A stretch of 64,000 nt of DNA from assembly GCF_002943425.1 (NCBI RefSeq), contig NZ_PTRA01000005.1, positions 1-64,000 on the forward strand. The letters run 5' to 3'. Positions 3,443 to 21,365 of this stretch are shown here, in pieces; within the stretch, counting starts at the first letter, position 1; each line of letters opens with the position of its first letter. The position numbers and the translations under genes are program-made. Under the pieces are notes generated by a model. That model was not told the origin of the DNA and searched no databases. It saw only the letters and a list, made by a program, of their open reading frames with translations. Origin of the DNA: Siphonobacter curvatus (lineage in GTDB: Bacteria; Bacteroidota; Bacteroidia; Cytophagales; Spirosomataceae).

Positions 3443-3477
3443 CACGAGCCCCTTACGATCTTGTGAAGAGGCTCGTG
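3443..3477. terminator. Bidirectional hairpin between convergent genes
   Basis: CACGAGCC (3443-3450) pairs perfectly with GGCTCGTG (3470-3477). It lies between the 3' ends of the ABM gene and the SGNH hydrolase gene. A short T run is lacking, so termination strength is uncertain, but position and stem fit a shared terminator. Confidence 0.55.
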
Positions 3478-3502
3478 TCAAAACCTTCTTTTGAAAGCTC
3501 CG

Positions 3503-4516
3503 CTATTTAGCTTGCTGAACGTACCAGTTTTTAGCTACTAGCTTGTCCTTGATTCGGCGGGCGATGATCTGATAGCCCAGTGAGTTCAGGTGCAGGTAAT
3601 CCGAGCGTACGCCCGCTGGAAATATATCCTGAGCCAGTTGAGCCTGATCTTGGGCAGTTGGCGTATACCCTACGGCTTTGAGTTCGTCGGCCGTGGGAGG
3701 AGTCATGGGCACAAAGTTGCTGCCGTAACGTCGCTGGAGTAAGGCATTAAAATCCGAAATCTGTTTGTAACCTGCTGTACCTTTCGTTTCCAGATTACTC
3801 ATCAGAATGCCTAATACCAGATAAAATTTAGGATTCGGCAGATAGTTAATGCAGTTGTCGATCAGATTGACAATCCCATCAAAATCGGGTACATCGTTTC
3901 GTCCCAACCAGAGGACCTGAATAGACGACTGATACGCGACTGCATCATCCGAAATAAAGACCGAATCGGTCGGAACGGCTACAGTGCTGGACTCGGTGGG
4001 CGTTAAGGTGTAGCTTTCCACTTGAGCCTCTCCCCCACCCTTTGCGGTACGGGTCAATGTACAGGGCACTTCGTTTACCCGACCCTTCAACGTCATGGTC
4101 AGATTGTTAGCAACCGTTGACAGCAGTTGTGTTGATAGCTTGGTTACCTTTACAGCTCCTGCTCCATTAAAGGCGTTTCCTTCCACGCTTAGTGTTAATG
4201 GAATCCCGCCCTGGCGAGCTACAATAGCCCGGCTTACCTGTCCATCGATACCAAAATTCTTGATCGTGTAATTAGGCAGTTCGTTGGCCAGCACCGTTGG
4301 ATAAGGCGTACCGCCTTTCCCAAACGTCAGCGAATCTCCCCAACAGGCAATTCGGGGTGGCGGGGGCGTAGTAGAGGATTTGGTAGGAAATACGTCATCG
4401 AGTACCTGGCATGAATCCAGAAGCATACTTCCTAAACCTAAAAGGCTAGCCCTTTGTAAAAAGGATCGACGATTCAGTAATGCTTGATCGCTTACTGGTT
4501 GATTATGTATAGACAC
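3503..4516 (-). CDS. SGNH/GDSL-type esterase, exported by Tat signal
   Basis: A 337-residue exported hydrolase of the SGNH superfamily, which deacylates esters of lipids, sugars or polysaccharides. The N-terminus carries a twin-arginine pattern NRRSFLQ (residues 15-21) and a hydrophobic stretch ending in Cys36, so it may be a lipoprotein. Block I is CWGDSLTFG with nucleophile Ser62. Block III is LGRND. Block V is SDYLHLNSLGY with the catalytic Asp and His. A proline-rich linker (about 48-54) follows the signal. Residues about 100-190 form an insertion rich in Thr and Val between blocks I and III. The substrate is not predictable. Confidence 0.8.
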   Translation of the reverse strand: MSIHNQPVSDQALLNRRSFLQRASLLGLGSMLLDSCQVLDDVFPTKSSTTPPPPRIACWGDSLTFGKGGTPYPTVLANELPNYTIKNFGIDGQVSRAIVARQGGIPLTLSVEGNAFNGAGAVKVTKLSTQLLSTVANNLTMTLKGRVNEVPCTLTRTAKGGGEAQVESYTLTPTESSTVAVPTDSVFISDDAVAYQSSIQVLWLGRNDVPDFDGIVNLIDNCINYLPNPKFYLVLGILMSNLETKGTAGYKQISDFNALLQRRYGSNFVPMTPPTADELKAVGYTPTAQDQAQLAQDIFPAGVRSDYLHLNSLGYQIIARRIKDKLVAKNWYVQQAK

Positions 4517-6252: not shown

Positions 6253-8607
6253 GCGATAGTTCAAAGTCAGGTTAATCTGTCGCAACCGCCCCTGACTGTT
6301 GGATTCCGTATAAAAATTACTGCCTTCGGTAATGGAGCGAAAACGTCGCGAATTGAAGACGTCGAGTACGTTCAGCGTCAGTGTTCCATTTCCTCGCAAA
6401 ATATCCTTACTCATCGATAAATCTAGTGTCGCCAGTGCTTTACGCGTTCCCTGCGGCGTTTGCTGGGGAGCTTCGTAATTGGCCCGGGCCTGTATATCCA
6501 GATTTTTCCAGAACGTAAATCGGTTGGTCATCCGGGCAAACCAACTGTAGGTATCACTTTGATAGGTGGCGTCGAGATTGGCACCGTCGGTGATGGCCCG
6601 GAAAAAGTTAAGGCTACCGTCAAGCTTCCACCAGGTTTTTGGTGAAAAAGAACTGGTAAATTCCGCCCCGTACGCATGTTCGGTTGCCAGGTTTTCGGGC
6701 CGGGTGGTTGAATTTCCGCCGTCATCCACCCGGCGAATCCGAATGATTTTTCCGTCCGTATGTCGATAGTACAGCGAGGAAGTAAACGATCCTTTCTCGA
6801 CGTACTTGATATGCCCGACTTCAAAAGCGTGCGTAAATTCCGGATTCAGATCCGGATTGCCGCTGTAGAAATTCCGACTATCACTAAACGTCATAAACGG
6901 ACTCAGATCGTTGTACTGCGGCCGTCGCACCCGGCGACTGTAACTGGCTTGGATAGCGTGCTGACGCGGCAGGTCGTAAGTGGCGTGTACGCTGGGAAAC
7001 AGATTGGCATACTGCCGGGGATTGACCTGATTGGTTTGTTTCAACGTAGTCGTCACATCGGTAATTTCACCGCGTAAGCCCAGCTGATACGAGAACTTGT
7101 GGGCCTTATTTCCCAGAATGGCGTAGGCTGCGTGAATGCGTTCTTCGTAGAGGAAGTTATTGGTAAGGCCTTCTAGGGGTTGCCAGCCCGTTTCGGCCCG
7201 CTGAGTCACCGAATAATTATTGGTCATATCGCGAAAACTGCTGCGAATTCCTGCTTCCAGCTTTCCTTCCTTGGCAAAGGGCCGTACGTAATCAGCCTGC
7301 AGGAGCCACTGCTTTTCGGTTTCATCATTCAAGGCCCGCTGTAAGATGGAAGGAGTACTTCCGCCACCTGGGTAAAACGTTTGCTGGGTGAAGTACTGAT
7401 CGGAATTTTCCCAGTTATCCAGGTATCGGATGTCCGCCGTCAGTTCGTGGCCCGCACGGGCGAAGGTTTTTTTGTAGGTAAGCACGTATTCGGAATTCGG
7501 CTCGGTTTCCGTTTCGTCCTGCGTCCGTTTGGTGGTCGCCAGTAATTCGGGACTTTGATACTGGTAATCGAGGTATTCCAGGTTAGTGAAACGTTTGCCC
7601 TTGCTGGTCCGCCAGGTATACGCCGCCGTTAGGATGCTTTTTTCACTGAAATAATAATCCAGTCCGGCCCGGGCGTTATTGTTCATACCCTTAAGCTGGC
7701 TTCGGGAGTTTTGCCGGGAAACAAAGGTGGAATCATTCCGGTAGACTTCCTGATACAGGTTATTTCGACCGGGGGTATTCCGATAAGCCAGCGTATAATT
7801 GACGAAAAAATTCAGATTCCGACGACGGTAATTGACGTTGGCAGCTAGTCCATAATTGGTCGGATGTCCCGTAATTACATCGAACGAGCCATTGATCCCT
7901 TCCTGCCGTTCTTTCTTGAGAATGATATTAATGACTCCTCCCATCCCCTCGGCTTCGTAACGGGCGGAAGGATTGGTAATGACTTCAATCTTTTCGATGG
8001 CACTGCCCTGTAGCTGTTGCAGTCCACTCCCACCCTTGATACTGACCAGTCCCGAAGGTCTGCCATCAATAAGAATCCGGACGTTGCTACTGCCCCGTAA
8101 GCTTACGTTTCCTTCCACATCCACGGCCACGGAAGGTACATTACTCAAAATATCCGAGGCCGTACCGCCCGCGTTGGCTAGGTCTTTTCCGACGTTAAAT
8201 ACTCGCTTGTCGAGCGTCAACTCCATCGAACTTTTTTCGGCCTGTACCACCACCTCTTTCAGGGAATTGCTGGTAGGGCTCAGTTGAATAACGCCCAGAT
8301 CCAGGGCCTGCGAGCGTACCTGCAAAGCCGCCGTTTTTACGGGCTGATACCCAATGAATTCGATTCGGGCAAAATAATTTCCCGGCGTACTGGCGAGGCT
8401 GAAGGCACCGGATTCGTCGGTAAGCGTACCGGCCACGAACGAACTATCCGGCAGTCGGAACAATCGCACGGTAGCCGAAGCCATGGGCGTCTGCTTTTCC
8501 TGAACCCGCCCGCGAATGCCCGACTGAGCCCAGACCGGATTCGAAAAAACAGATACACAACTAAGCAAACAAAAGAAGCAATAGAATAGTAGAGGTTTAG
8601 AGGTCAT
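6199..8607 (-). CDS. TonB-dependent outer-membrane beta-barrel protein
   Basis: An outer-membrane protein of the OMP_b-brl_3 type found widely in Bacteroidota. From the ATG at 8607 it has 802 residues: a signal peptide ending VWAQ, a CarboxypepD_reg-like beta-sandwich (GIRGRVQEKQTPMASATV onward), a plug domain containing VEVxGNVSLRGSSNVRILIDG and IEKIEVITNPSARYEAEG, then the barrel. A longer frame reaches 8640, but it would start with TTG and bury the signal peptide. It is a paralogue of the receptor at 57655-60102. No neighbour indicates the ligand. Its 3' end overlaps the DUF1508 gene. Confidence 0.85.
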   Translation of the reverse strand: MTSKPLLFYCFFCLLSCVSVFSNPVWAQSGIRGRVQEKQTPMASATVRLFRLPDSSFVAGTLTDESGAFSLASTPGNYFARIEFIGYQPVKTAALQVRSQALDLGVIQLSPTSNSLKEVVVQAEKSSMELTLDKRVFNVGKDLANAGGTASDILSNVPSVAVDVEGNVSLRGSSNVRILIDGRPSGLVSIKGGSGLQQLQGSAIEKIEVITNPSARYEAEGMGGVINIILKKERQEGINGSFDVITGHPTNYGLAANVNYRRRNLNFFVNYTLAYRNTPGRNNLYQEVYRNDSTFVSRQNSRSQLKGMNNNARAGLDYYFSEKSILTAAYTWRTSKGKRFTNLEYLDYQYQSPELLATTKRTQDETETEPNSEYVLTYKKTFARAGHELTADIRYLDNWENSDQYFTQQTFYPGGGSTPSILQRALNDETEKQWLLQADYVRPFAKEGKLEAGIRSSFRDMTNNYSVTQRAETGWQPLEGLTNNFLYEERIHAAYAILGNKAHKFSYQLGLRGEITDVTTTLKQTNQVNPRQYANLFPSVHATYDLPRQHAIQASYSRRVRRPQYNDLSPFMTFSDSRNFYSGNPDLNPEFTHAFEVGHIKYVEKGSFTSSLYYRHTDGKIIRIRRVDDGGNSTTRPENLATEHAYGAEFTSSFSPKTWWKLDGSLNFFRAITDGANLDATYQSDTYSWFARMTNRFTFWKNLDIQARANYEAPQQTPQGTRKALATLDLSMSKDILRGNGTLTLNVLDVFNSRRFRSITEGSNFYTESNSQGRLRQINLTLNYRLRQAKKKTKGLDEEQGG

Positions 8608-8904
8608 TCCTGAGGAAATAGCGAGGTCGTAAGCCTTCAAAGTACAAGCTATTTCCCAGAATTATTCCAAACATTGGATTTATTCGAGTATAAATACGAC
8701 AAGAACGCGAAAGATGAAGATTTGGAGTACTATGGGCGGGCGGATGGGTTGGTTGTTGTCAGTTAATAGTTGTTGATTGATTGTTAACAGCTACTTGGAA
8801 CAAGCAAATTTCTTCATGGACGACATAAGCCCAAGGCCCGTCCTATCACATTCCATGGCGGAATTCCATTCCGGGAATCGCATTCTGGGGCTCAAGCCGC
8901 TTTC

Positions 8905-8944
8905 CATTCCATGGCGGCCACCATGGGATGGCCCCCATGGAATG
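8905..8944. repeat. Double-stem palindrome with CCATGG motifs
   Basis: CATTCCATGG (8905-8914) pairs with CCATGGAATG (8935-8944). Inside it, GGCCA (8916-8920) pairs with TGGCC (8929-8933) around an 8-base loop that contains a further CCATGGG. The result is a 10 plus 5 bp hairpin with one internal C/C mismatch. It is not followed by a T run. Confidence 0.6.
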
Positions 8945-9056
8945 CATACGGACTAAAAGACCAGCTCCGTCAGCGGGACGAAAATAGTCTTGTAATAACA
9001 TTACCATCAGTAGCTTTTAGTAGGAAATGCATACGAACCAAAAGACCAGCCGTCTC
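8942..9056. repeat. Imperfect direct repeat pair
   Basis: Two copies of a roughly 30-base unit start at 8943 and 9028 and are about 85 bases apart. Both contain ATGCATACG, then AAAAGACCAGC, then a CCGTC-like end. The first copy abuts the hairpin at 8905-8944. They may mark a duplicated fragment of a small element. Confidence 0.5.
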
Positions 9057-9087
9057 ACCGACACAAAAAACTAATTCATCAAAAAAA

Positions 9088-9981
9088 CTAACGACCTCTC
9101 ATTACTTTCCTCTCCCTCAAATCATACCGCTGCCCCTGACTCAACAAAATAAACCCGCCGTTGGACGCAGTAAACTGCTCTTGTTGACCCTGCACATGAG
9201 GCTCCCTTTTCCCTACAATGGTTTGGTAGTCATACACCGCCACGTACGATTTGCCCAACACTTCCAACTGATCTTGTTGTACAACAATGGCCGTCGATTC
9301 GTCCAGCCCGATCCCAATCAGTTGCGGAGACTGGCGGATGAAATCAATGAGATCAAACTGCCGATTGCGTTTGAGTAAATGCTGATCAATTGCGGAATTT
9401 TTCAGAAAACCCAGTCCCTGTGTATGATCGCCGACGAGGATGTCAGCCCCCTTCGTATCGCCCCGCCACAAAAACGAACCCTGAATACTCGCTCCCGCCG
9501 AACTTCCGGCGATGACCCCGCCCCGGTTCAGTACCTCAAAAAAAGCCTGATGCGTACGGGTATTAAGGTAGGAATCCGCAATTCGCCACTGCCGACCGCC
9601 GATGAAGTACACGCCCGTCGCTTCCCTGAGCGGAGCAATAAACGCGTCACTATTGGCTTCCGTCAGGTTTTTGGTGTGGAGAAGCGTAACCCGGCTCACG
9701 CCCGACTGTTTCCGGATACTCTCCAGATGCGTCGGACTCAACGCCGCCGAATCACCCGCTGCGGCGGTAACGACGACAATGCGGGCTTTCTCTTTGCCTC
9801 CAGCCAGTTCCACAAACCGGGCCCAGATTTCCGGTCCCACGGTACCACCACCAATGATGAGTAGCGAACCCTTTTCGGGGCCGTGGCGAGTGGTACTTTT
9901 TTCATTGATGACAATCGGTGTCTGGGCTGAAAGGTCAAGCGTCCAGACGATTAAGAAGAAAAGTAGAATGAATTTTTGCAT
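9088..9981 (-). CDS. Cyanophycinase-like peptidase S51, secreted
   Basis: A 297-residue serine peptidase of family S51 (cyanophycinase and dipeptidase E type). It has an N-terminal signal peptide (MQKFILLFFLIVWTLDLSAQ), a GSLLIIGGG start to the glutamine-amidotransferase-like fold, and the nucleophile elbow IAGSSAGAS with Ser161 as probable nucleophile. The FIGGRQWRIADS and GIGLDESTAIVV segments are family-typical. It likely cleaves isoaspartyl or acidic peptides in the periplasm. It lies 92 bases downstream of the flavoprotein in the SusC-SoxC operon. It may be the last gene of that operon or may have its own promoter. Confidence 0.8.
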   Translation of the reverse strand: MQKFILLFFLIVWTLDLSAQTPIVINEKSTTRHGPEKGSLLIIGGGTVGPEIWARFVELAGGKEKARIVVVTAAAGDSAALSPTHLESIRKQSGVSRVTLLHTKNLTEANSDAFIAPLREATGVYFIGGRQWRIADSYLNTRTHQAFFEVLNRGGVIAGSSAGASIQGSFLWRGDTKGADILVGDHTQGLGFLKNSAIDQHLLKRNRQFDLIDFIRQSPQLIGIGLDESTAIVVQQDQLEVLGKSYVAVYDYQTIVGKREPHVQGQQEQFTASNGGFILLSQGQRYDLRERKVMRGR

Positions 9982-10073
9982 ACGTCAGGAAGAAAACCGG
10001 AAGGTAGAAACCCTCCGCTACAAAAGACTTAAACAGCGATTTTCCGGAACAGAACCGCGACCAATGCTTACGC

Positions 10074-11525
10074 TTAAGGAATTAGCGTCCGGTTTTCCCG
10101 AATCTGGAATACGTCCTCTAAGGCCTTGCGGGCCGCATGATAGCCGCACATGCCATGCACGCCCCCGCCCGGAGGCGTGGATGACGAGCAGATGTACAGG
10201 CCTTTCGTAGACGTCCGGTACGGCGAAAAGCGTAAGGCAGGTCGGGTGAACAGTTGGGTAATATCAAGAATTCCGCCGTTAATATCGCCACCGATGTAGT
10301 TGGGGTTGTGCTCCTGTACCTGAGCCGTATTCATGACGTGGCGAGCCAGAATCCGGTCTTTGAAACCCGGAGCAAAGCGTTCCACCTGGTTTTCGATGGC
10401 TTCGGTACGGTCCCGCGTGGAGCCGTTGGGCACGTGGCAGTACGCCCAGGCCGTATGCTTGCCTTCGGGAGCCCGCGAAGGATCGTACTGACTTTGCTGG
10501 GCCAGCAAAACGAAAGGCTTCTCCGGGTAGCCGCCCTGTGAACTAAGCTTTTCGGTGTCCGTGATTTCCTGAAGAGTGTTCCCTAAATGCAGGGTTCCGG
10601 CGTTCCGGCAATTTTCGTCGGTAAACGGAATCGGAGCGTCGAGAGCCCAGTCAATTTTGAAGATACCCATCCCGTAGCGGTAACGTTCCAGTTGCCAGCG
10701 ATACAGGGGGGAAAAGGTATGTCCAGCAATTTTAAGCAATTGTCGGGGCGTAATGTCGAACAGCACCGCGTGCGAGGAAGGCAGTTGCTGCAGGGATTCG
10801 ACGTAGAAGTTCGTTTCGATTTTTCCGCCCAGCGACTGAAAGTACATCGCTAATGCTTGAGCAATTTGTCCCGAGCCGCCTTTGGGTATGGGCCAGCCCC
10901 GTAAATGGCCAGCCGTTAAGAGTACCAGTCCAATCGCGGAGGTGGTGAGGTTACTCAAAGGCTGGATGGCATGGGCGGCCATACCGCCCAACAGTCCCTG
11001 AGCCTGCGTTCCTTTGAAAACGTGTTTGAACCAGCTGGCCGGGGGTAAGGCCCGCAAGCCGAAGGCCGCGAAATCCAGAGGATGTGAAGGAAACGTCAGC
11101 GGACCGAGCGTATCGACCGCCACGTTGGGCCAGGTTTTGGTTAGAAATCCGGCGAGTTTTTCGTAGACCTGCTGATCCACGCCCAGCGTTTGAGCGGTTT
11201 TTTGAATGGATTGAAACAGTACCGCTGCTGGCCCTGTATCGAAGGGATGGGCCGCCGCGACCTCGGGATAGATGAATTCCAGACCAAAATCCGCCAGCGG
11301 AAGCGTATTAAAGAAGGGCGAGCCTGCCGCCAGGGGATGAATGGCCGAACAAATATCATGCTTGAAACCTGGCAGAGTGACTTCCTGGGTACGGAGTCCA
11401 CCACCAATGGTCGATTTCCCTTCCACAACCAGCACTGAAAGTCCCGCTTGTTGTAGCGTGATGGCGGCAGCCAGTCCGTTCGGACCGGAACCTACCACTA
11501 CGGCATCGTACTCTTTTTTTGTCAT
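10074..11525 (-). CDS. Phytoene dehydrogenase-like FAD oxidoreductase
   Basis: A 483-residue flavoprotein of the CrtI/amine-oxidase superfamily (COG1233). The N-terminal dinucleotide-binding motif is VVVGSGPNGLAAAI at residues about 9-22, followed by VLVVEG and the GGGLRTQEV loop. The C-terminus has the FAD-closing pattern GLYICSSSTPPGGGVHGMCG. No signal peptide is visible, so it should be cytoplasmic or peripheral. Carotenoid enzymes normally sit beside crtB, which is absent here. It starts 20 bases after the SoxC-like gene, so it is probably co-transcribed. The substrate is unknown. Confidence 0.8.
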   Translation of the reverse strand: MTKKEYDAVVVGSGPNGLAAAITLQQAGLSVLVVEGKSTIGGGLRTQEVTLPGFKHDICSAIHPLAAGSPFFNTLPLADFGLEFIYPEVAAAHPFDTGPAAVLFQSIQKTAQTLGVDQQVYEKLAGFLTKTWPNVAVDTLGPLTFPSHPLDFAAFGLRALPPASWFKHVFKGTQAQGLLGGMAAHAIQPLSNLTTSAIGLVLLTAGHLRGWPIPKGGSGQIAQALAMYFQSLGGKIETNFYVESLQQLPSSHAVLFDITPRQLLKIAGHTFSPLYRWQLERYRYGMGIFKIDWALDAPIPFTDENCRNAGTLHLGNTLQEITDTEKLSSQGGYPEKPFVLLAQQSQYDPSRAPEGKHTAWAYCHVPNGSTRDRTEAIENQVERFAPGFKDRILARHVMNTAQVQEHNPNYIGGDINGGILDITQLFTRPALRFSPYRTSTKGLYICSSSTPPGGGVHGMCGYHAARKALEDVFQIRENRTLIP

Positions 11526-11545
11526 ACCTTCATCGACCGGAACCG

Positions 11546-12796
11546 TTACGTTCGGAGCAAAACCTGCCCGTCGCGTTGGAGCACCCAGCCCGTAATGGGA
11601 TTGAAATGATAGCCGCCTTTGGAACCACGGGCGGCTACTAACTGCTGATAGGTGGGTTGGACATAACCAGTTTCGTCGGTCACCCGGCTCTGGATTTCCG
11701 TTTCATTGCCGTCCCAGTGCCAAAGGTAACGAAAACCCGTATGGGCCTTATCTAAAATGGGGCCTTGGATCTGGGCCAGTTGCCAGCTTCTGCCGCCATC
11801 CGTACTCACTTCCACCCGATCCACCTTACCACGACCACTCCAGGCAATCCCCCGAATTTCGATCCAGCCCTTTTGTACTTGAGCCGGATACGCCGGGAAA
11901 GTGATGATGGAACGGGCGTCGATGTCGAAACTGAAATAACGTATTTTGCCGTCCTTCACGGGTTCGGTATACTTGGACGTTTCCTCGCGGGTCATAAAGG
12001 GTTCGTCGGAAAGTTCCAGTCGCCGAAGCCATTTGACACTCATGTTTCCCTCGTAACCCGGCAGAAACAACCGAAACGGATATCCCTGCTCGGGGCGAAT
12101 GGCCTCGCCGTTTTGGGCGTACACGATCATGGCATCCGACCAGCCTTTCGCCAATGGAATACTGCGGGTCATCTTCGCCGCATCCGATCCTTCAGCTAGA
12201 AACCACTGGGCTTGGGGCTTCACTCCCACTTCCCGAAATAAGGTAGAGAGCATGACTCCCGTCCATTCGCTCTGGCTGGTTAGGCCGCAAATATCCTGTG
12301 GACTCAGCTTTGGATTACCCGAACGAAAGTTGCCCGAACATTCCAGAAAGCAAATCCGCGTGACGGACGGATACCGCTTCAGATCAGCTAGCGTCAATAC
12401 CAGCGGTTTTTCCACCAAGCCATGAATCAACAGCTCGTGCTGAGCCGGATCGATGGCGGGAACACCGTTGTGATTCCGTTCAAAATGCAAATCCGAGGGC
12501 GTAATCGTGCCGTATAGATTCTGCAAGGGCGTTCGGGAAGAAATGTCCGACGGTTTCTTGACGGGCTTCTCAAACGGCGACCGCGTGCCGACTGTGCCGG
12601 GTGGTACACCAGGAACTTTGGTCGGGTCGGTCTTCCACTCTTTTTCCGACAGAGCCGCCTGTACAGCTTTGCCGAACGGAGCCTGAGCCAGCACGATCGC
12701 GGCGGTAGCCGCTCCGCCTAATAGACTTCGCCGACTGACTTTTTGTTCGAGTACAACGGGTTTTTCTCCGGGTAATACTTTCATTGGTTCTTTCAA
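11546..12796 (-). CDS. SoxC/sulfite-oxidase-like molybdopterin enzyme
   Basis: A 416-residue exported molybdoenzyme of the sulfite oxidase family, closest in layout to SoxC sulfur dehydrogenase. A Tat signal (SRRSLLGGAATAAIVLAQA) starts it. The Moco domain contains CFLECSGNFRSGN, with Cys153 the expected molybdenum ligand. From about 290 a Mo-co dimerisation domain follows (IEIRGIAWSGRGKVDRVEVS, then DGGRSWQ). It should oxidise sulfite or a protein-bound sulfur species in the periplasm and pass electrons to the cytochrome c encoded 7 bases upstream. The enzyme-cytochrome order mirrors SoxCD and SorAB. Whether the substrate is sulfite, sulfane or something else is not visible. Confidence 0.85.
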   Translation of the reverse strand: MKEPMKVLPGEKPVVLEQKVSRRSLLGGAATAAIVLAQAPFGKAVQAALSEKEWKTDPTKVPGVPPGTVGTRSPFEKPVKKPSDISSRTPLQNLYGTITPSDLHFERNHNGVPAIDPAQHELLIHGLVEKPLVLTLADLKRYPSVTRICFLECSGNFRSGNPKLSPQDICGLTSQSEWTGVMLSTLFREVGVKPQAQWFLAEGSDAAKMTRSIPLAKGWSDAMIVYAQNGEAIRPEQGYPFRLFLPGYEGNMSVKWLRRLELSDEPFMTREETSKYTEPVKDGKIRYFSFDIDARSIITFPAYPAQVQKGWIEIRGIAWSGRGKVDRVEVSTDGGRSWQLAQIQGPILDKAHTGFRYLWHWDGNETEIQSRVTDETGYVQPTYQQLVAARGSKGGYHFNPITGWVLQRDGQVLLRT

Positions 12797-12803
12797 AACG
12801 GCT

Positions 12804-13376
12804 TTACCGGATTATGGGACCTCCGCTGCGGTCGTCCAGAATATATTTGGCTTTAGCGGGCATTGCCACGCGGGGTAAGGTCTGAGCATCGAGCACAAAT
12901 CCAGGCTGGATCCGCTGGTTTTTTTCCAGCAAAAAAGCCGTCAGACTGTACACTTCAGCGTCGGTCAGACTGCCTGGAGCGTTAAACGGCATAGCCCGCC
13001 GGATGTAATCAAACAGCGTCGTAGCGTAGGGCCAGTAGTTACCAATACCTTTGGTTTTGCTGGTATCCGAAACCACTAGTCGGTCATTGGGACCTTCTAC
13101 GCCCGTTTTGCCGTGACAGGCCGAACAACGTTCCGCATACAGCACGGCTCCTTTCACGGCCGTCCCCGAACCCGGTGGTAAGCCTTTTCCATCGGGACGA
13201 ATGGCACTATCCCAGGCTTTGATTCGCTCAGCCGTAGCCGGACGGCCCAAGCCATAAATGGTATCAGCAGACATCCTTCCGACCGTAGGGGTTCGGGGCT
13301 GGGAAAAGCTCAGACTGGCCCAGGCTCCCAGCCCCAATCCGGCCCAGAGTAGTCCTTTTTTTACAATTAAACTCAT
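12804..13376 (-). CDS. Periplasmic cytochrome c (SoxD/SorB-like)
   Basis: A 190-residue mono-haem class I cytochrome c. An N-terminal hydrophobic segment (LLWAGLGLGAWASLSF) acts as signal or anchor. The haem-binding CSACH is at residues 84-88, and Met129 in RRAMPFNAPG is the likely sixth ligand. The segment GPNDRLVVSDT and the end LPRVAMPAK resemble SoxD and the cytochrome partners of sulfite dehydrogenases. It is 4 bases from the DoxX-like gene and 7 bases from the SoxC-like gene, so it is almost certainly the electron acceptor of that molybdoenzyme. Confidence 0.85.
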   Translation of the reverse strand: MSLIVKKGLLWAGLGLGAWASLSFSQPRTPTVGRMSADTIYGLGRPATAERIKAWDSAIRPDGKGLPPGSGTAVKGAVLYAERCSACHGKTGVEGPNDRLVVSDTSKTKGIGNYWPYATTLFDYIRRAMPFNAPGSLTDAEVYSLTAFLLEKNQRIQPGFVLDAQTLPRVAMPAKAKYILDDRSGGPIIR

Positions 13377-13380
13377 CCTT

Positions 13381-15054
13381 CTAATCGTATTTACCCGCTT
13401 TCAGGGTACTTTCGGAAAGGGCGTATTTGCGGGGTACCCGATCGAGTACTACGTGAATCGAATCTCTGTTTTCATTAATCCCTGACAGGATGACCCGGTT
13501 TCCTCCGTTAATGGCTTGGTAATTCAGAATCATCCGGTTGCGTAGCGGCGTGGGTGCTTTCACGGTACCGTTGTTGCTACGATCCCAGCCTACGACCTGC
13601 GAACTTTCGCCGCCGGGGTTTTCGGCTTCGCTGATCATCCCACGGGTGCGGCGGGTAGATCGGGCCAGCGGATGAATTTTTTCATCTTCCGAACCGATAA
13701 TCGCCAAAGCTTCCTTGGGTATCCAGCTGGCCACGACGGGTTTTGCTTTGGCTTCTGTACGAGCCGCTTTTCCCTCAATCTCCCGCGTTTCGCGGTTCTG
13801 ACGTCCCCGATTTTTATCCTGCAAATACAATACCTGATGCAGAGTATCGGCCTCGTAGTAAAACACCCGTTGCCCGCCCGCGACGCCCGTCAGCTCGAAG
13901 GTTCGGTTAATGTCCCGCATGGGCGAACCTCCGCCATTGGACAAATCCAGATCCACGGGTCGGTTGACTTTAAACGTGAGCGTCGTCCAGTTTTCGAAGG
14001 TGGCTTGTTGCCAGCGTACGGAATCCAGCGGCGAATAGGGAATGACCTGGTTGTTGATTTTAAATTCCGTCACGTTATAATTTCCCCGCAATTCCGACAC
14101 GCCTTTAAGGGCGGGCTGTTTGTACGGATCATACAGGAAGTTCACGCCCTGCAGGTAGAAAAACCACACCACAAACACCCCAATTACTCCGGTTTTTAGG
14201 AAAACCCGGCTCCATTGTTGCCAGGGTTTATGAAACGAAGGATAGTAATGAACGGGAATGGTCAACTGTTCGCGAACGAGCAGATTGTATACTTTTGGTA
14301 TATCGTAAATGAGCAAGAAACCGGATAAAAGCACGAAGTACGAACTATATACGTGGACGCCTCCATCGTACTCGAAGTTAACAAAGACAATGTCAGCCAA
14401 AGCTCCAAATAATAATACGGAACCCCAGAAGGTCGTGGCTCGGAAAAACAGTAAGGCTCCAGCCAGTACTTCTACCACACCCGCGAACACTTCGTACCAG
14501 GGGACAATGCCAATGGAAAGCCAGTAGATTTTTTGTAGCGTCAAATCACCAAAATCGGTATTGAGAACGCCCAGCGAAGGATACGGCAGTTGCGTAGGGA
14601 ATAGTTTGGTATACCCGAAACCGATAATACCAATCCCCGCCCGGTAGCGTACTACCACCCGAAGCCAGTAATACAGTCGGTTGTACTCGCGGGGCTGAGG
14701 TTTGCGGCGACTATCGATAAAGGTCCAGACCAACCCTACCCCGATGGCAAAAATCAAGGTGATTACCCAGGTGGCGTAGCCATTGAGCGAGCTACCGAAA
14801 ATCTTGTTTCCGAAAATATTCAGACCGGAACCAAACCGGGCAATGTCGTACAAATCGCGGTAATGCAGTCGCGTCCAGTCAAACGAAAACAGATCTTTGT
14901 ACCAGCCCGGATCATTGGGCAGAGCAAGACTCACAAAAAACACGAAAGCAATGCGGAAGAGAATCTTCTGCCAGGCCGTCCAGAATGGAGGCCGAAGCTG
15001 CGTTTCTGAAGCCGCCGTTTCCGGACGTAAGGTATCGACAGGGAGCGTTGACAT
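13381..15054 (-). CDS. DoxX-like membrane protein with C-terminal insertion
   Basis: A 557-residue inner-membrane protein related to its upstream neighbour. The N-terminal half has roughly seven or eight hydrophobic helices, including the DoxX/DoxD-like core YRAGIGIIGFGYTKLFP and VLAGALLFFRATTFWGSVLL. The C-terminal 230 residues are soluble and beta-rich and end in INENRDSIHVVLDRVPRKY. Compared with the 452-residue paralogue it carries about 87 extra residues (roughly 418-504), charged and low in hydrophobics, just before the last strands. DoxD proteins of archaea are subunits of thiosulfate:quinone oxidoreductase. A role in moving electrons or sulfur species to quinone is therefore plausible here but is inference. 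Confidence 0.7.
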   Translation of the reverse strand: MSTLPVDTLRPETAASETQLRPPFWTAWQKILFRIAFVFFVSLALPNDPGWYKDLFSFDWTRLHYRDLYDIARFGSGLNIFGNKIFGSSLNGYATWVITLIFAIGVGLVWTFIDSRRKPQPREYNRLYYWLRVVVRYRAGIGIIGFGYTKLFPTQLPYPSLGVLNTDFGDLTLQKIYWLSIGIVPWYEVFAGVVEVLAGALLFFRATTFWGSVLLFGALADIVFVNFEYDGGVHVYSSYFVLLSGFLLIYDIPKVYNLLVREQLTIPVHYYPSFHKPWQQWSRVFLKTGVIGVFVVWFFYLQGVNFLYDPYKQPALKGVSELRGNYNVTEFKINNQVIPYSPLDSVRWQQATFENWTTLTFKVNRPVDLDLSNGGGSPMRDINRTFELTGVAGGQRVFYYEADTLHQVLYLQDKNRGRQNRETREIEGKAARTEAKAKPVVASWIPKEALAIIGSEDEKIHPLARSTRRTRGMISEAENPGGESSQVVGWDRSNNGTVKAPTPLRNRMILNYQAINGGNRVILSGINENRDSIHVVLDRVPRKYALSESTLKAGKYD

Positions 15055-15060
15055 AGCGGT

Positions 15061-16419
15061 TTAGAGTTTAAGACCTTTACGGCGACCTACTTTTTTAGCT
15101 TCGTAAATCAGATACTTTTTGTCCACCTGGTTGAGTACGACGCGGATGGAATCGCGGTTTTCGTTGAGGCCCTTCAGCAGGATGGTTCCAGCTTCGGGAC
15201 GCTCGTAATGCAATACCAGTTGCTCGCCTTTGTAATGGCGGTTTTTGTTTTTCAGCAGCAGCGTATGAGTCAGCGAATCAATCGTGTAAGAATAATAGTG
15301 ACGACTAATCGAACCGGTTGATTCATAGTTTCGCAGGGAATCAGCGGCGAAAATTTCTTCCGTATTGAGCGAATCGATTTGCACCGGACGGTTGGAGCGA
15401 ATACTCAGGGTAGCCCAGGTTTCGAACACCACATCTTTCCAGCGAACGGGGTCGGTTTTCGAGTAGGGAATGTCCTTGCCATTAATGCTGAATTCACTGA
15501 CATTATACAGCCCCGCCGCCTGCGAAAGTCCCTTTTGCTGGGGATACTGATACGATCCTTTGCGGTGACCAGCGTAGGTTTGATAGCCGTAGAAAAAGAC
15601 GAAGAAAACGATAAAGGCCAGTTTGCCTACCAGCCTAGCGTTTTTCAGCCACTGCTCGGAGAACACGGGCTGAAAGCGATTAGGCTTGGTAGCTTTTTCC
15701 AGCGATAGTAACGTAAAAAGTCGAATAGCATCGAAGGAAAACAGAAACAAAGCCAGACTGATCAGGTAGAGACTATACACGTATTCACCACCCTCGTAGG
15801 CCAGGTTCGAAACAAAAACATTTCCCGTAAACGGCAGAATGATGAGCGTGGCAATCGTAGCCGTTTTCCGATGCAGGAGTAGTAAGCCACCGATAATTTC
15901 AATCAGACCCAGGAAGGATTCGTAGGTTGGTACGACACCTAAACTTAGGGAGAAGAGTTTCCAGGCCGAAAAATCGCCATAGTTGGTATTCAGATGACTT
16001 AGCGAAGGCAGCGGCGATTGTTCGGGAAAGAACTTGATGAATCCATACGCCAGCACACCCACGGCCAGCCGATACCGAACCAGCACCCGCAGCCAATAAT
16101 ACAACAGGTTGTATTCCCGCTTCTGGCGATCGAATACACTCCACACTACCGAACCCACCAAAGCGATACCCGCCACGATGGCCCAATTGAGAAACGTGTC
16201 CGCTCCATCAATGAATTTGGGACTGTACCGCGACAGGTAAAAAATTTCGCGGTAACTCAACTGTAGCCAGTCGATGGAAAACAGATACTGGTAATACTTG
16301 TAATCGAGCGGTACGACCTGAATGAAAAAGTACAGAAAGAAAAAGCGGAAGATGGCTTTTTCGGCCGTACTCCACGCGGCCGGTTCCGGGAGATGCGTTG
16401 GTTGATCCATCGTTTGCAT
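15061..16419 (-). CDS. DoxX-like membrane protein, shorter paralogue
   Basis: A 452-residue integral membrane protein with the same architecture as the next gene. It has an N-terminal membrane anchor (EKAIFRFFFLYFFIQVV), a REYNLLYYWLRVLVRYRLAVGVLAYGF core typical of DoxX-like proteins, a further set of helices, then a soluble C-terminal domain with NVSEFSINGKDIPYS and NENRDSIRVVLNQVDKKY. The tandem pair probably arose by duplication and may form a heteromer. It begins 5 bases after SusD and ends 6 bases before its paralogue. Exact function is unknown; the coupling with SoxC-like and cytochrome genes suggests sulfur redox chemistry. Confidence 0.7.
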   Translation of the reverse strand: MQTMDQPTHLPEPAAWSTAEKAIFRFFFLYFFIQVVPLDYKYYQYLFSIDWLQLSYREIFYLSRYSPKFIDGADTFLNWAIVAGIALVGSVVWSVFDRQKREYNLLYYWLRVLVRYRLAVGVLAYGFIKFFPEQSPLPSLSHLNTNYGDFSAWKLFSLSLGVVPTYESFLGLIEIIGGLLLLHRKTATIATLIILPFTGNVFVSNLAYEGGEYVYSLYLISLALFLFSFDAIRLFTLLSLEKATKPNRFQPVFSEQWLKNARLVGKLAFIVFFVFFYGYQTYAGHRKGSYQYPQQKGLSQAAGLYNVSEFSINGKDIPYSKTDPVRWKDVVFETWATLSIRSNRPVQIDSLNTEEIFAADSLRNYESTGSISRHYYSYTIDSLTHTLLLKNKNRHYKGEQLVLHYERPEAGTILLKGLNENRDSIRVVLNQVDKKYLIYEAKKVGRRKGLKL

Positions 16420-16424
16420 AGAGG

Positions 16425-17762
16425 TTAGTAGCCTTCGTTTTGAACCAGTGCTTTATCCACCAGCAGCTGATCTACGGGTAGGGGTAATACGTAACGTTTC
16501 GGATCCGTAACGCCCAGTACAGTAGCCGCCCGTCCCGTCCGTACGAGGTCAAACCAGCGGTGCGGTTCCAGGGCAAATTCCACGCGGCGTTCGTTTTCAA
16601 TCGCCAGTAAAACAGCCTCGGACGTAGCCGCCGTAACGGCGGGCAGCCCAGCCCGATCACGCACGGCATTCAGATCGCTCAGAGCAGCCGTCAATTTGTT
16701 CTGTTGAGTCCGGGCTTCGGAGCGAATCAGGTATTGTTCGGCAATGCGAAGCACGTACGAAGGGTCTGAGCCAGGGTTGCGGTAGTAGAGGTTGCCGTAC
16801 CAGCGGTTTTGGTTGTCTTTGGCGACGAGTACGCTCCGATTCCCACCCACGCTGGCGTCGTTGAGCAGCGTGACCAGAGCGGTATTGGGTGCCCACTGAC
16901 GCGTACCGCCGTTGGTTTGCGGCTGCCACTGCCCACGATGAGCGTTGATTTCAGTGGTACCGTTGTAGAAAATCTCGAAAATGGATTCCTGCGTACCCCG
17001 GGCGTTATCGGCAAAGAAGTTCCGGTACGGCTTTAGCAGGGTATAGTTTGTCGCATCGCCGATGAGCTTGCTGGCGTATTCTTCCGCTTTGACCCAATCT
17101 TTCTGATAGAGGTAATAGCGGGCTTTCAAAGCCCAGACAGTCTTTTGCGTGGCCCGGTAGCGGTCGGTGGTAGCGGGTAGTAGAGACTCGGCAGCATCCA
17201 GATCTTTAAGTACCTGAGCATAGGTCTCAGCGGTGGAACTGCGGGCAATGCCCCGGTTGTCGGCGGGTGTCACAGTCGGTTTGGTAATCAGTGGTACTCC
17301 GCCCCAGACGCGGGCTAGATCAAAATAGGCCAATGCTCGTACGAAATACGCTTCGCCGAGGTACTGGTTCTTCAAAGCAGTAGTCAGAGCTGGGTCGGCT
17401 ACGTCGTTGACCTTCGCCAGCACGTTGTTGGCCCGGTTGATGGTCTGATAAATGGCGATCCAGACGCCGCTGACCATGCCATTATCGGCATTGACTTTGT
17501 GGTTGATGAATTCCTGAACGATGGACTGCGAGCCAGTCCATTCCACGTTATCACCCGACAGGTAACCGATGGCCTGAAAGTTAGTACCGTAATAATTACC
17601 ACTCGCCAGAGCACTGTACACACCGCGAACGGCCGTTTCAGCGGAAGTTTTATCGGTAATGGTAACGGCATCCGAAATAGATTCCTTCGGCTTCACATCC
17701 AGAAACGACTGGCAGGAAGTCAGGAACAGAATACTCAATACAATTGAAAAAGTTGCTTTCAT
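16425..17762 (-). CDS. SusD/RagB-family outer-membrane lipoprotein
   Basis: A 445-residue surface lipoprotein that forms the lid of a SusCD importer. The signal peptide ends in LFLTSCQSFLDVKP, with lipidated Cys17. TPR-like helices include YLGEAYFVRALAYFDLARVWGG, a hallmark of the family, and the C-terminus has NAVRDRAGLPAV and ENERRVEFALEPHRWFDLVR. It is 12 bases after the SusC gene. The pair binds and imports a ligand across the outer membrane. The ligand is usually glycan or peptide but may be different here given the downstream genes. Confidence 0.9.
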   Translation of the reverse strand: MKATFSIVLSILFLTSCQSFLDVKPKESISDAVTITDKTSAETAVRGVYSALASGNYYGTNFQAIGYLSGDNVEWTGSQSIVQEFINHKVNADNGMVSGVWIAIYQTINRANNVLAKVNDVADPALTTALKNQYLGEAYFVRALAYFDLARVWGGVPLITKPTVTPADNRGIARSSTAETYAQVLKDLDAAESLLPATTDRYRATQKTVWALKARYYLYQKDWVKAEEYASKLIGDATNYTLLKPYRNFFADNARGTQESIFEIFYNGTTEINAHRGQWQPQTNGGTRQWAPNTALVTLLNDASVGGNRSVLVAKDNQNRWYGNLYYRNPGSDPSYVLRIAEQYLIRSEARTQQNKLTAALSDLNAVRDRAGLPAVTAATSEAVLLAIENERRVEFALEPHRWFDLVRTGRAATVLGVTDPKRYVLPLPVDQLLVDKALVQNEGY

Positions 17763-17774
17763 TACGGTCTGTTC

Positions 17775-20700
17775 TTACAAAGTCACGTTTAAACCCAACT
17801 GCAAACCCACCGGCTGCGGTGGCGTACCCAGGTCAATGCCCTGCTGATTCTGGTCACTGCTGGCACTCGATTCGGGGTCCAGACCCGTGTATTTGGTCAG
17901 CAGCCAGAGGTTGGTACCCACGGCGTAGAGGCGGAGGTTATCCAGTCCCACTTTCTTGGACCAGGTTTTCGGTAAGGTATAGCCCAGGGTCAGGGAACGA
18001 AGGCGGAGGAATGAGCCGTCTTCCAGCCAGCGGCTACCGCCATCGCGATAGTTGTTGACGTTGACACCATCGGGACGGGGTACGTCGGTGATGTCGCCGG
18101 GTTTCTGCCAGCGGGCCAGGTTGCTGGCGAAGATGATCCGGGCAGCGTCGCGGGCTCCGCCACCCTCTCCGAAGAATTTGTTGTGATTGTAAATTTTGTT
18201 TCCGTACGAAAAGGAAAAGAACACATTCAGATCGAAACCGCCGTAAGTCAGGTTATTGGTCAAACCGCCGAAGAGTTTGGGCCAGATGCTACCCAGAATC
18301 TGCCGGTCGTCCGTAGTAATTTTTCCGTCTTTGTTGACGTCTTCGTACACCACGTTTCCCGTCTGCGGATCAACGGACAATTGCTTGTACACCCAGAACG
18401 AATACAGCGGATGACCCTGCTGCTGCAAAATCAGATCGCGGCTGCCGTAGCGTAAGGGCGTTTCAAGTTTTTCAATGGTGTTGACGTTACGGGCCAGATT
18501 CAGGCTCGTCGTCCATTTGAGTTGAGACGTTTGAAGGTTGACCGATTGAATACCTAATTCAAAGCCTTTGTTGCTGATTTCTGCCGCGTTGCTCCAGTAG
18601 GTGCTAAATCCCGTTGTGGCGGGTAAGGTCAGTTGCAGCAGGCCATTGGTTGTGTATTTTTTGTAGACGTTGAATTCGGCGGATAGGCGTCCGCTGAAGA
18701 ACGCCAAGTCCAGACCTACGTTCAGCTGACGGGTTTTTTCCCACTGCAAATCCGGGTTGCCCAGTTGCTGGGGAGCAATGCCGGGACTACCCTGGTACGA
18801 AGCTCCTCCGGTCCACAAACCCTGGGCGGCGAAATTGCCGATGCCGTTCTGGTTTCCCGTAATGCCGTAACTGGCCCGCAGTTTCAAATCACTCAGTACC
18901 GTTATGTCTTTCAGGAATTCTTCCTGCTTGATTCGCCAGGCTGCCCCGACCGCCGGAAAGTAGCCCCATTTACGTTCATTCCCGAAGCGGGACGAGCCGT
19001 CAGCCCGGATACTGGCATTGATCAGGTACCGACCCGCAAAGTTGTAATCGGCTTTGGCGAAAAACGAGGCCAGCGTACTCTTACTCCAGTTCTGGGAAGC
19101 GGCCGTTGTCGAAGCCGACGAAATCTGCGTAAAGTTGTTATTGGCAAAACCACGGCCTTCGGCATACGTACGCTTTAGTACATCACTTTGCAGGGTATTT
19201 CCCACCAGCAATCCGAAGGTGTGTTTATTGCCTAACGTCTTGCGGTACGCCAGCGTCTGTTCGTTGAGAACGCTGGAAAACTGCGTTTGACTGGAAGTCG
19301 CCAGTCCCGACGGACTGCCCGCAATGAGTAGATTATTCCAGTATTCGGATTCGTCGTAGCCGTTGTAATCCAGCCCGAAGCTAGTACGGAATTTCAGTCC
19401 GGGTACGATTTCCGCTTCCCCATATACGTTCCCGATGTAACGCAGGCTGATGGAGTGAACGTCGTAATTATTGAGCAGTAACGTCAGGTTATCAAAACCC
19501 GCCCGGCCGACCAGTACACCGTTTTCGTAGGGCGAAAGATACGTAGGCGTGTGCAAAGCGGCCTGTAACAAACCGCCCTGTGGACCGTCCCCGGCCCGTG
19601 CCTGATTACGGAAGGTTCGGCTGAGGATATTACTCACCCCTACTTGGACCTTGTCGTTGACTTTTTGATCGAGATTGATTTTGAAGCTGGCCCGTTCGAA
19701 GTTGATGGGCTTGATGATGGCTTCCTGTTGCGTATAGCTACCGCCGATGTAATACTTGGTGTTGGTGGTTCCTCCGGCTAGTGACAAGTCGTAGTTCTGC
19801 AGGCGGGCGGTACGGAACAATTCGCCGAGGCGGTCGTAGGTTTGCTGTTCTTCCGGTAGTCCCCTACCCCCTTCGGATACGGGGCGGAAGGGTCGGTTAG
19901 CTTCCGTACGATTCAACGAAGGCGTATCCTTGCCCGTATTGATCCACCATTCATTGACCAGTTGGGCGTGTTCGGGACCCGTCGTCAAATCCCAGAGCCG
20001 GGCCGCTTTCGACCAGCCCGTGGAAGCATTGAGGCTTACCTTGGGTTTCTGTTCGAAGTTACCGCGTTTGGTCGTGATGAGAATAACGCCATTGGCCCCT
20101 CGCGATCCGTATAAAGCCGTGGCTTCGGCATCCTTCAGAATTTCGATACTTTCGATGTCGGAAGGGTTGATGTCGGCAATGGGTGAGGTCGCTTTTCCAC
20201 CCGTACTCACCGATTGCAAACTATTGTTATTGATGAAAACGCCGTCTACTACGTACAGCGGATCATTATCGGCATTGATGGATGTGGCTCCGCGAACGCG
20301 AATGTTTACGGCTTCGCCCGGTACGCCCGTGTTGCTGGAAATCTGTACACCAGGAATTTTACCCTGAAGCTGAGCGTCGAAACTACCTGTAGGAATATTT
20401 TTGGTATCGGAAGGGTCAATTTTGGTAATGGAACCGATCAGGTTTTTGCGTTCCTGTGTGCCATAGCCCACCACGACTACTTCACTCAGTTGGTTCTGAT
20501 CGGGTACTAGCTGAATCGTTAGCTGGGTTTGATTACCAACGCTTACCTCCTGCGTTTTGTAACCGATGAAGGAAACCACCAATCGAGCCCGGTCGGGGGC
20601 CTGACTGATTTCAAACTCACCATTGGCATTGGTGGATACCCCCTGAATAGTACCCTTAATCTGAATATTCACCCCCGGAATGCCTTTCCCCGTTTCATCA

Positions 20701-20852
20701 AGTACCTGCCCTTTGATGGGTCCTTCCGTCGCTCGCCAGTAGGATCGAACCTCTTTAGCAGGAATGGCGGCATGCCCCGATGATACGCTTAGGAGCAGAG
20801 GCAGCATCCAGGCCTTCCAATAATTCCCGTGCATGTGTACGTAATTTTTCAT
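17775..20852 (-). CDS. SusC/RagA-family TonB-linked outer-membrane transporter
   Basis: A 1025-residue TonB-dependent transporter. After the signal peptide (ending GHAAIPA) comes a CarboxypepD_reg-like domain (IKGQVLDETGKGIPGVNIQI). The SusC signature VVVGYGTQERKNLIGS is next, then the plug with VRGATSINADNDPLYVVDG and IEILKDAEATALYGSRGANG, and the barrel. First gene of the operon that continues with SusD, two DoxX-like proteins, cytochrome c and the SoxC-like enzyme. Its promoter and structured leader lie at 20990-21053. The ATG at 20852 gives M-K-N-Y; a second ATG seven codons in is also possible. Confidence 0.92.
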   Translation of the reverse strand: MKNYVHMHGNYWKAWMLPLLLSVSSGHAAIPAKEVRSYWRATEGPIKGQVLDETGKGIPGVNIQIKGTIQGVSTNANGEFEISQAPDRARLVVSFIGYKTQEVSVGNQTQLTIQLVPDQNQLSEVVVVGYGTQERKNLIGSITKIDPSDTKNIPTGSFDAQLQGKIPGVQISSNTGVPGEAVNIRVRGATSINADNDPLYVVDGVFINNNSLQSVSTGGKATSPIADINPSDIESIEILKDAEATALYGSRGANGVILITTKRGNFEQKPKVSLNASTGWSKAARLWDLTTGPEHAQLVNEWWINTGKDTPSLNRTEANRPFRPVSEGGRGLPEEQQTYDRLGELFRTARLQNYDLSLAGGTTNTKYYIGGSYTQQEAIIKPINFERASFKINLDQKVNDKVQVGVSNILSRTFRNQARAGDGPQGGLLQAALHTPTYLSPYENGVLVGRAGFDNLTLLLNNYDVHSISLRYIGNVYGEAEIVPGLKFRTSFGLDYNGYDESEYWNNLLIAGSPSGLATSSQTQFSSVLNEQTLAYRKTLGNKHTFGLLVGNTLQSDVLKRTYAEGRGFANNNFTQISSASTTAASQNWSKSTLASFFAKADYNFAGRYLINASIRADGSSRFGNERKWGYFPAVGAAWRIKQEEFLKDITVLSDLKLRASYGITGNQNGIGNFAAQGLWTGGASYQGSPGIAPQQLGNPDLQWEKTRQLNVGLDLAFFSGRLSAEFNVYKKYTTNGLLQLTLPATTGFSTYWSNAAEISNKGFELGIQSVNLQTSQLKWTTSLNLARNVNTIEKLETPLRYGSRDLILQQQGHPLYSFWVYKQLSVDPQTGNVVYEDVNKDGKITTDDRQILGSIWPKLFGGLTNNLTYGGFDLNVFFSFSYGNKIYNHNKFFGEGGGARDAARIIFASNLARWQKPGDITDVPRPDGVNVNNYRDGGSRWLEDGSFLRLRSLTLGYTLPKTWSKKVGLDNLRLYAVGTNLWLLTKYTGLDPESSASSDQNQQGIDLGTPPQPVGLQLGLNVTL

Positions 20853-21053: not shown

Positions 21054-21365
21054 ATCTACAGAATTTATAGACTAATAAATTATATTCTTGGTTCTGTCAC
21101 AAAAGATATATTATATGTCACATTTACGGGGCTGAAAGTAAGATCTCCGATCTTCAACGAATGGCTTACCATCTTTACAATTTCAATTTGCTACGATCAC
21201 CCATCTTTTAAAATGATCCCTCTGAAAAGATTGAGTATTAGTAACGTCATGTGTTAAGTAATACTTATCATTTAGTTTTAAAATGAGCTATAATTCTGAT
21301 GGTTAAGTCCGATTTCATTCAAAAAATCATATTTTCACGTTTCTAATTACTATCACCGCCCTACC

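Follow-up and report, generated by a model that had tools for sequence, protein, structure and literature searches.

A conserved SusCD–SoxC gene array in Siphonobacter curvatus and a candidate sulfur-regulon box at its head

Genes of the SusCD–SoxC array

We analysed a 64,000-nucleotide stretch of Siphonobacter curvatus DNA (positions 1 to 64,000 of contig NZ_PTRA01000005.1, assembly GCF_002943425.1; hereafter the window) that carries genes for a SusC/SusD importer, two paralogous proteins, a cytochrome c, a SoxC-type sulfite dehydrogenase and a flavoprotein. A preliminary description made from the sequence alone had reported these as seven tightly spaced minus-strand genes followed by a cyanophycinase-like peptidase gene of the S51 family. 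The open reading frame (ORF) list reproduced the coordinates of the array and its six gaps. All eight ORFs between 9088 and 20852 lie on the minus strand, with 12, 5, 6, 4, 7 and 20 bases separating successive genes from SusC to the flavoprotein gene and 92 bases between the flavoprotein and S51 genes.

The first gene of the array encodes SusC (17775–20852, minus strand), a TonB-dependent outer-membrane transporter that scored 870.6 bits against TIGR04056 (cut-off 368.25). It is followed after 12 bp by the gene for the SusD lipoprotein (16425–17762, minus), which matched PF14322 (104.8) and PF07980 (87.7), both over cut-off. By family score, SusD domains and adjacency, these proteins are a SusC/SusD transporter pair. 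A profile search of the PDB matched SusD with many SusD structures, the best being 9sje_B, and named no substrate.

The next two genes encode proteins of 452 and 557 amino acids that we named DOXA (15061–16419, minus) and DOXB (13381–15054, minus) for this analysis. They are paralogues with 38% identity over DOXA residues 8–397, DOXB having the longer C-terminal domain. The preliminary description had called both DoxX-like. Neither protein reached the gathering cut-off of DoxX (PF07681; 23.6), nor did either reach any Pfam or NCBIfam model at 1e-3. What survives of the label is a set of sub-threshold matches obtained at a lax limit, of DOXB-type proteins to MauE at E values of 0.0099 to 0.054 (0.046 for the window DOXB), under the curated cut-offs, and of a distant relative to DoxX at E 0.025 (15.6 bits, cut-off 23.6), together with the NCBI annotation of a Hymenobacter DOXA homologue as ‘DoxX family protein’; the corresponding DOXB homologue is a ‘hypothetical protein’. 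A structural model of DOXA was of modest quality (mean predicted local distance difference test score, pLDDT, 65.9) and consisted of a helical, predicted membrane part and a C-terminal beta-barrel-like domain, which did not reveal a function, while that of DOXB, with a mean pLDDT of 45.7, could not be used. Foldseek returned nothing for the DOXA model at E 0.001 or better, the best matches (E 0.01–0.05) being mostly small beta-barrels and lipocalins over about 110–175 aligned columns, and the PDB profile search for DOXA gave a single match at E 0.21. The genome encodes a third DOX-like protein, 27% identical to DOXA, away from SusCD (L194, G000 C1, ORF 8522–9826). The DOXB frame is interrupted in two Siphonobacter assemblies (L107 and L119), through either assembly error or decay.

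Downstream of DOXB lie cytC (12804–13376, minus), encoding a cytochrome c with a signal-like N-terminus that matched PF13442, and SoxC (11546–12796, minus), encoding the molybdenum sulfite dehydrogenase. SoxC scored 489.7 bits against TIGR04555, over the equivalog cut-off of 420, and was over cut-off for the molybdopterin and dimerisation domains PF00174 and PF03404. Its best solved-structure match was 2xts_A, a ‘sulfite dehydrogenase’, aligned over residues 82–412, and it contains the sequence SRRSLL, which we take to be a Tat-like signal. The SoxC ORF begins with TTG, and three relatives from the same genus align from residue 5, an ATG. The start is thus probably the ATG at 12784, and the cytC–SoxC gap may be 19 bases rather than 7. 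From its sequence and position, the cytochrome is the likely electron acceptor of SoxC.

The preliminary description had further proposed a periplasmic sulfur-oxidising module for an organic or inorganic sulfur compound, and its reading as an inorganic module of Sox type found no support. In Paracoccus, SoxCD acts on sulfur bound to SoxY, and SoxD carries two haem domains. The cytC product has one CxxCH motif and no NCBIfam match at 1e-3, the presence of a SoxD model in that library being unchecked. SoxZ (PF08770) was found in none of 222 genomes of the family (Spirosomataceae), versus 4 of 5 proteobacterial control genomes; the search did not include SoxY, and an earlier single control, a plasmid without soxYZ annotated near soxC, had given no match. 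The failure to find SoxZ in any of these family genomes leads us to conclude that there is no Sox pathway here, and SoxC most likely acts without a SoxYZ carrier. A second sulfite-oxidase-like protein, 36% identical to SoxC, is encoded elsewhere in the genome (C1:499073–500029, within L195, G000 C1:490000–509000), and behind its gene lies a 132-residue ORF containing a CxxCH motif.

The last gene of the array encodes a CrtI/CrtO-like oxidoreductase that uses flavin adenine dinucleotide (FAD) (10074–11525, minus). It was assigned by family searches, its PDB match being weak and confined to the FAD-binding part. The S51 gene (9088–9981, minus) matched PF03575 and just passed the cyanophycinase model TIGR02069 (126.7, cut-off 126.6). 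It is present as described, but it stands beyond both the 92-base gap and a terminator-like hairpin (9998–10017, minus), the latter a weak candidate in a region with 21 such hairpins against 16.1 expected (standard deviation 4.0), barely over chance. The place of the S51 gene also varies among loci, nor does it stand behind the flavoprotein gene at L037/L107 and L039/L108, two further loci from Siphonobacter. This gene is not part of the core array.

Conservation of gene order and exchangeable heads

SoxC was found at E 1e-40 or better in 72 of the 222 family genomes. At E 1e-60 it occurred in 33 of 390 genomes drawn from across the order, of which five belonged to other families, and a sample of 395 genomes from the phylum gave three, the window genome included. 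We compared 70 SoxC loci from the family, consisting of the window and 69 further loci of about 20 kb where the contig allowed, with all counts made on the SoxC strand of each stretch. The loci of G171 (a 3.5-kb contig) and G096 were not fetched, and that of G194 was read as plasmid record L001, outside the 70. L052 (G178), which is near-identical to the window and has fragmented ORFs, was retained among the 70 and dropped from the box discovery set, the box counts before operon genes and the Mantel test described below.

The cytC and SoxC genes were adjacent in all 70 loci. Matches to SusC and SusD were present in 67 each, to DOXA in 63, DOXB in 62, the flavoprotein, a frequent neighbour, in 41 and the S51 peptidase in 23. 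The strict order SusC-SusD-DOXA-DOXB-cytC-SoxC was found in 45 loci, and six more had the same order with S51 inserted (51/70 together). Median gaps in the 39 loci that the ORF caller placed in strict order were 22, 18, 18, −20 and 3 bp. Seven loci came from outside the family. Three of these had the strict order, six had SusC, SusD, DOXA and DOXB together with the flavoprotein gene, and five had YeiH; the seventh was a 6.4-kb contig with cytC-SoxC only. The order does not end at SusD and extends to SoxC, both within the family (70 loci) and beyond it (7 loci), in agreement with the preliminary description, which had joined the importer to the SoxC genes in one operon. In the 70 loci it exceeds what chance would produce.

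DOXB was found at E 1e-40 or better in 79 of the 222 family genomes; 69 had both SoxC and DOXB, three had SoxC only (G074, G133 and G135), 10 had DOXB only and 140 had neither. Five of the 10 DOXB-only genomes gave weak matches, perhaps to other paralogues. Across 62 loci, distances among SoxC proteins correlated with those among DOXB proteins (Mantel r 0.77, a value reached in none of 999 permutations), a result that was not used as proof because shared species history yields the same correlation. Two loci (L096 and L097) have cytC-SoxC in another neighbourhood, common to both and without SusCD. Plasmids carry a related locus in Spirosoma oryzicola (219 kb) and a SusC-SusD-DOXA-DOXB set in Hymenobacter volaticus (147 kb).

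Different heads are exchanged on the one cytC-SoxC tail. Four of the 70 loci, as well as L001 of Spirosoma oryzicola, have a distant SusCD pair (SusC 28–29% identity) in front of the tail, in a head that also holds an amidohydrolase, an SsuD-like LLM flavin monooxygenase and an amino-acid permease; the SoxC behind it is 72–74% identical to that of the window. The SsuD-like protein scored 249.3 bits against TIGR03565 (cut-off 518.2) and is a relative, not an established equivalent, of that family. In 10 of the 70 loci a DUF1684 protein precedes the tail, eight of these having a TPR protein as well. SoxC was 70–75% identical to the window protein across the loci with alternative heads.

The sister loci contain further genes connected with sulfur. 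Exporters of the YeiH/PF03601 (PSE) family were found in 11 of the 70 family stretches and DASS symporters in six. The sister-locus YeiH exporter scored 171.7 against PF03601 (cut-off 24.5) and 91.9 against TIGR00698 (cut-off 232.6). An O-acetylhomoserine sulfhydrylase gene was present in three of the 70 stretches and beside two loci without an adjacent SoxC, and a methionine aminotransferase gene was present in three loci; the window operon has neither.

A palindromic box upstream of SusC and of cysH

A palindromic box, GTCTATNNANTNNRTAGA, lies 202 bp upstream of the SusC start (21055–21072, minus) and is a candidate operator of a sulfur regulon. The pattern was derived from the upstream regions of SusC, with duplicate loci (L107–L114, L116, L117, L119 and L120) dropped from the discovery set. 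L115 and L118 were kept in that set and are absent from the 55-operon box counts, the gene-order counts and the control-region counts. In the 600 bp before SusC of 55 operons, which are the regions that yielded the pattern, the box was found in 12, 24 and 33 at up to 0, 1 and 2 mismatches, respectively. Twenty dinucleotide shuffles of the same regions gave means of 0, 0 and 0.9, and the reversed pattern gave 0, 0 and 3.

We also examined 400-bp regions before individual genes. With at most one mismatch, 20 of 54 SusC genes of this operon type had the box in front of them. With at most two, it preceded none of 77 cytC, 77 SoxC and 46 flavoprotein genes, a distribution that fits a single control region at the operon's head. 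Counts for the remaining genes at up to one mismatch (two in parentheses) were 0 (1) of 21 for S51, 2 (4) of 18 for DUF1684, 1 (1) of 16 for TPR, 0 (2) of 16 for YeiH and 0 (3) of 3 for SusC of the SsuD-like type, and the box was absent before DASS (0/6) and sulfhydrylase (0/2) genes. The regions before cysH, which had not contributed to the pattern, contained the box in 13 of 50 cases at up to one mismatch and in 19 of 50 at up to two, one of the 50 stretches being only 89 bases long. At these two limits the shuffles gave means of 0.05 and 0.9, and the reversed pattern gave 0 and 3.

The 6.39-Mb genome contains five exact sites and 18 one-mismatch strand matches, several of which are the two strands of one site, compared with six for the reversed pattern. 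Besides the site at the window SusC operon, one exact site lies 58 bp before the ORF of cysH-cysD-cysN. Two are on contig C6, one of them between a flavin mononucleotide (FMN) reductase gene and a SusC-SusD pair 45–47% identical to that of the window, the other between thioredoxin-like and hydrolase genes, about 2.4 kb from a TPR-SusC-SusD set (66, 47 and 48% identical). The fifth precedes a gene that by eye resembles a sigma factor and is perhaps there by chance. These two further SusCD pairs near exact boxes (L235 and L236; 45–48% identity) are probable additional members of the regulon. Among the one-mismatch sites, one separates a DUF1684 gene from a 600-residue ORF and another stands before a PhyH dioxygenase gene.

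Sixteen further genomes with SoxC, of our choosing, gave 29 exact strand matches, against five for the reversed pattern, with three genomes having none. For 20 of the 28 distinct exact places, a gene of one of the following kinds is found no further than about 500 bp away (the kinds were set after viewing, and several labels rest on partial similarity or were given by eye): a SusC or SusC-like receptor (8, three of them of this operon type), PhyH (2), 1-Cys peroxiredoxin (2), sulfatase (2), serine hydrolase (2), and one each of a lone DOX-like protein, a fatty-acid hydroxylase, a class-V aminotransferase of the cysteine-desulfurase type and a thioredoxin-like protein. The remaining eight are ambiguous, three being inside ORFs. 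The lone DOX-like gene (L248, ORF 2481–3944, minus) is 57 bp from its exact box, which suggests that DOX proteins by themselves may belong to the box regulon.

The sequence GGCGGCAACCG was noticed by eye in a hairpin-like stretch, not folded computationally, of the SusC leader in L071, L073, L117 and L118, the last two of which had no Rfam match. No Rfam family was matched before SusC in the 148,884 bases searched, which comprised the window and four loci. The sole match was a cobalamin riboswitch in the window (46606–46877, minus; 80.5 bits), which lies upstream of genes for Peripla_BP_2 and FecCD proteins (44329–46619), a likely B12 uptake locus. The window covers the first 64 kb of a 372,542-base contig, and since it encodes a Rep3 initiator (25149–26606) and a ParA-type protein (28925–29869), the contig is likely a plasmid or second replicon.

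Proposed role, alternatives and known systems

Because the box is common to this operon and the sulfate-assimilation genes, the operon would belong to a sulfur regulon, and the sharing points to sulfur acquisition or to the handling of sulfite from organic sulfur. We lean modestly towards the view that the operon is an organic-sulfur utilisation locus within this regulon, in which SoxC turns sulfite into sulfate. According to this model, the operon would be transcribed from one control region containing the box, under control of sulfur status. SusC and SusD would import an organosulfur compound across the outer membrane, and its desulfurisation would yield sulfite, perhaps through DOXA/DOXB and the flavoprotein here and through the SsuD-like monooxygenase in sister loci. 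As DOXA and DOXB occupy the place that the SsuD-like set has in the sister head, they may carry out a desulfurising or transport step. Periplasmic SoxC would then oxidise sulfite to sulfate and pass the electrons to the neighbouring cytochrome c, and the sulfate would be taken up and assimilated via CysDN and CysH, or discarded. The preliminary description was right to link this SusCD pair with sulfur, a link strengthened by the box shared with cysHDN and by the SsuD-like, YeiH-like, sulfate-symporter and sulfhydrylase genes of sister loci, but an inorganic Sox-like module found no support and the regulon had escaped it. The locus is a variant of the SusCD nutrient-uptake locus.

A number of observations weigh against this model. 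The box counts upstream of SusC are circular because the pattern came from those regions, and the related operons and loci in the counts are not independent. In the window alone, two matches at two mismatches were found versus 1.36 expected, which is no rarer than chance, and 22 of the 55 operons had no box at up to two mismatches. The box was also found before the internal DOXA gene in 2 of 69 cases at up to one mismatch (4/69 at up to two) and before none of nine SusC genes of the TPR/DUF1684 type at either limit. All 13 cysH matches fell within the 30 loci nearest the window genome, with six of six in its genus, and 20 cysH loci picked across the family gave one box at two mismatches and none at one; the link with sulfate assimilation is thus good as far as Siphonobacter and near relatives are concerned. 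Moreover, five family genomes (G113, G115, G116, G196 and G198) have SusC-SusD-S51-DOXA-DOXB and the flavoprotein gene with no SoxC at E 1e-40, indicating that SoxC is dispensable. The window operon itself lacks an SsuD-like, YeiH or DASS gene, and DOXA and DOXB are proteins of no known function.

A possible, if rather unlikely, alternative is that the SusCD pair feeds a sulfur-holding source of carbon or amino acids, such as peptides or taurine amides, and that SoxC removes toxic sulfite or feeds respiration, the benefit being carbon supply instead of sulfur. This explanation would fit the amino-acid permeases and YeiH-type exporters of the sister loci, the S51 peptidase of 23 of the 70 stretches, and the precedent of SorT in Sinorhizobium meliloti, where a periplasmic sulfite dehydrogenase is reported to be required for optimal growth on taurine (PMC3511301). 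The box shared with cysHDN instead suggests control by sulfur status, and other exact boxes lie near sulfatases and 1-Cys peroxiredoxins; sulfur starvation of Pseudomonas aeruginosa raises a 1-Cys peroxiredoxin along with cys, ssu and msu genes (PMC12581299). We consider it unlikely that SoxC acts on something other than free sulfite, such as a sulfinate or S-sulfonate that DOXA/DOXB would release, in a new periplasmic desulfurisation pathway. The tight link of SoxC with DOXA/DOXB would suit such a pathway, as would the SoxY-bound substrate of Paracoccus SoxCD set beside the failure to find SoxZ in any of the 222 family genomes, and free sulfite could be served by the second, 36% identical sulfite-oxidase-like protein and the small CxxCH gene beside it. 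SoxC is also paired with the SsuD-like head, however, where free sulfite is expected.

That the SusCD pair imports a conventional substrate, a glycan or peptide for instance, with cytC-SoxC as a passenger or separate unit brought there by chance or shared ancestry, appears distinctly improbable. The tail can stand without SusCD nearby (L096 and L097), and the five genomes lacking SoxC likewise accord with a passenger. Against this are the short median gaps of the 39 strictly ordered loci, the retention of the order across genera and other families, the occurrence of different heads with the same tail, and the absence of any box before cytC or SoxC.

Returning to the organic-sulfur model, we propose tentatively that Spirosomataceae and relatives have a class of organic-sulfur SusCD loci with exchangeable front ends and a constant cytC-SoxC, in which DOXA/DOXB would be a new two-subunit membrane desulfurase and one sulfur regulator would also govern cysHDN, sulfatases and peroxiredoxins. 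SusCD importers are known mainly for glycans and also serve peptides. A sulfur branch, if true, would explain part of their great number and would give these bacteria a route for organic-sulfur use. The question of substrate could then be tested, using the operon and box as defined here and growth on one sulfur source at a time. We found no report of a SusCD-SoxC locus among the open-access papers listed (8 to 15 titles at most per listing, of up to 203 papers), as judged by titles and the beginnings of abstracts, which does not prove its absence from print.

The nearest SusCD counterpart is PusCD of Flavobacterium. According to PMC8115612, SusCD can serve phosphate compounds, and such complexes can belong to the phosphate-limitation response. 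PusCD resembles the present locus in being a non-glycan SusCD pair linked with the limitation of a mineral nutrient, the genes of releasing enzymes lying in the same cluster; it differs in handling phosphate instead of sulfur and in that its induction was shown, whereas that of the window operon is inferred. In the passages of that paper that were consulted, PusCD offers no counterpart to the molybdenum sulfite dehydrogenase, the cytochrome c or DOXA/DOXB. The back-end of organosulfonate dissimilation, a YeiH/SuyZ/TauZ exporter together with a periplasmic sulfite dehydrogenase and cytochrome c, offers another comparison. PSE/YeiH exporters are regarded as moving sulfite out of the cell so that it can be oxidised in the periplasm, and this fate of sulfite made in the cell is described in PMC11582611 and PMC3511301. 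The likeness would lie in this fate of sulfite, together with the exporter family of the sister loci and a cytochrome c beside the dehydrogenase. In contrast to that system as described there, the window operon has a SoxC-type rather than a SorT/SorA-type enzyme, a SusCD front end and DOXA/DOXB, and no sulfonate-degrading enzyme. With the Sox system for thiosulfate oxidation the locus shares a SoxC-family enzyme next to a cytochrome c, and differs from it in that SoxZ was found in none of the 222 family genomes. Sulfonate scavenging of the SsuEADCB/MsuED type uses an ATP-binding cassette (ABC) importer and direct assimilation. The SsuD-like LLM monooxygenase of sister loci and the FMN reductase gene by an exact box in the window genome recall this system, whereas at the present locus SusCD replaces the ABC importer and sulfite oxidation would replace direct assimilation.

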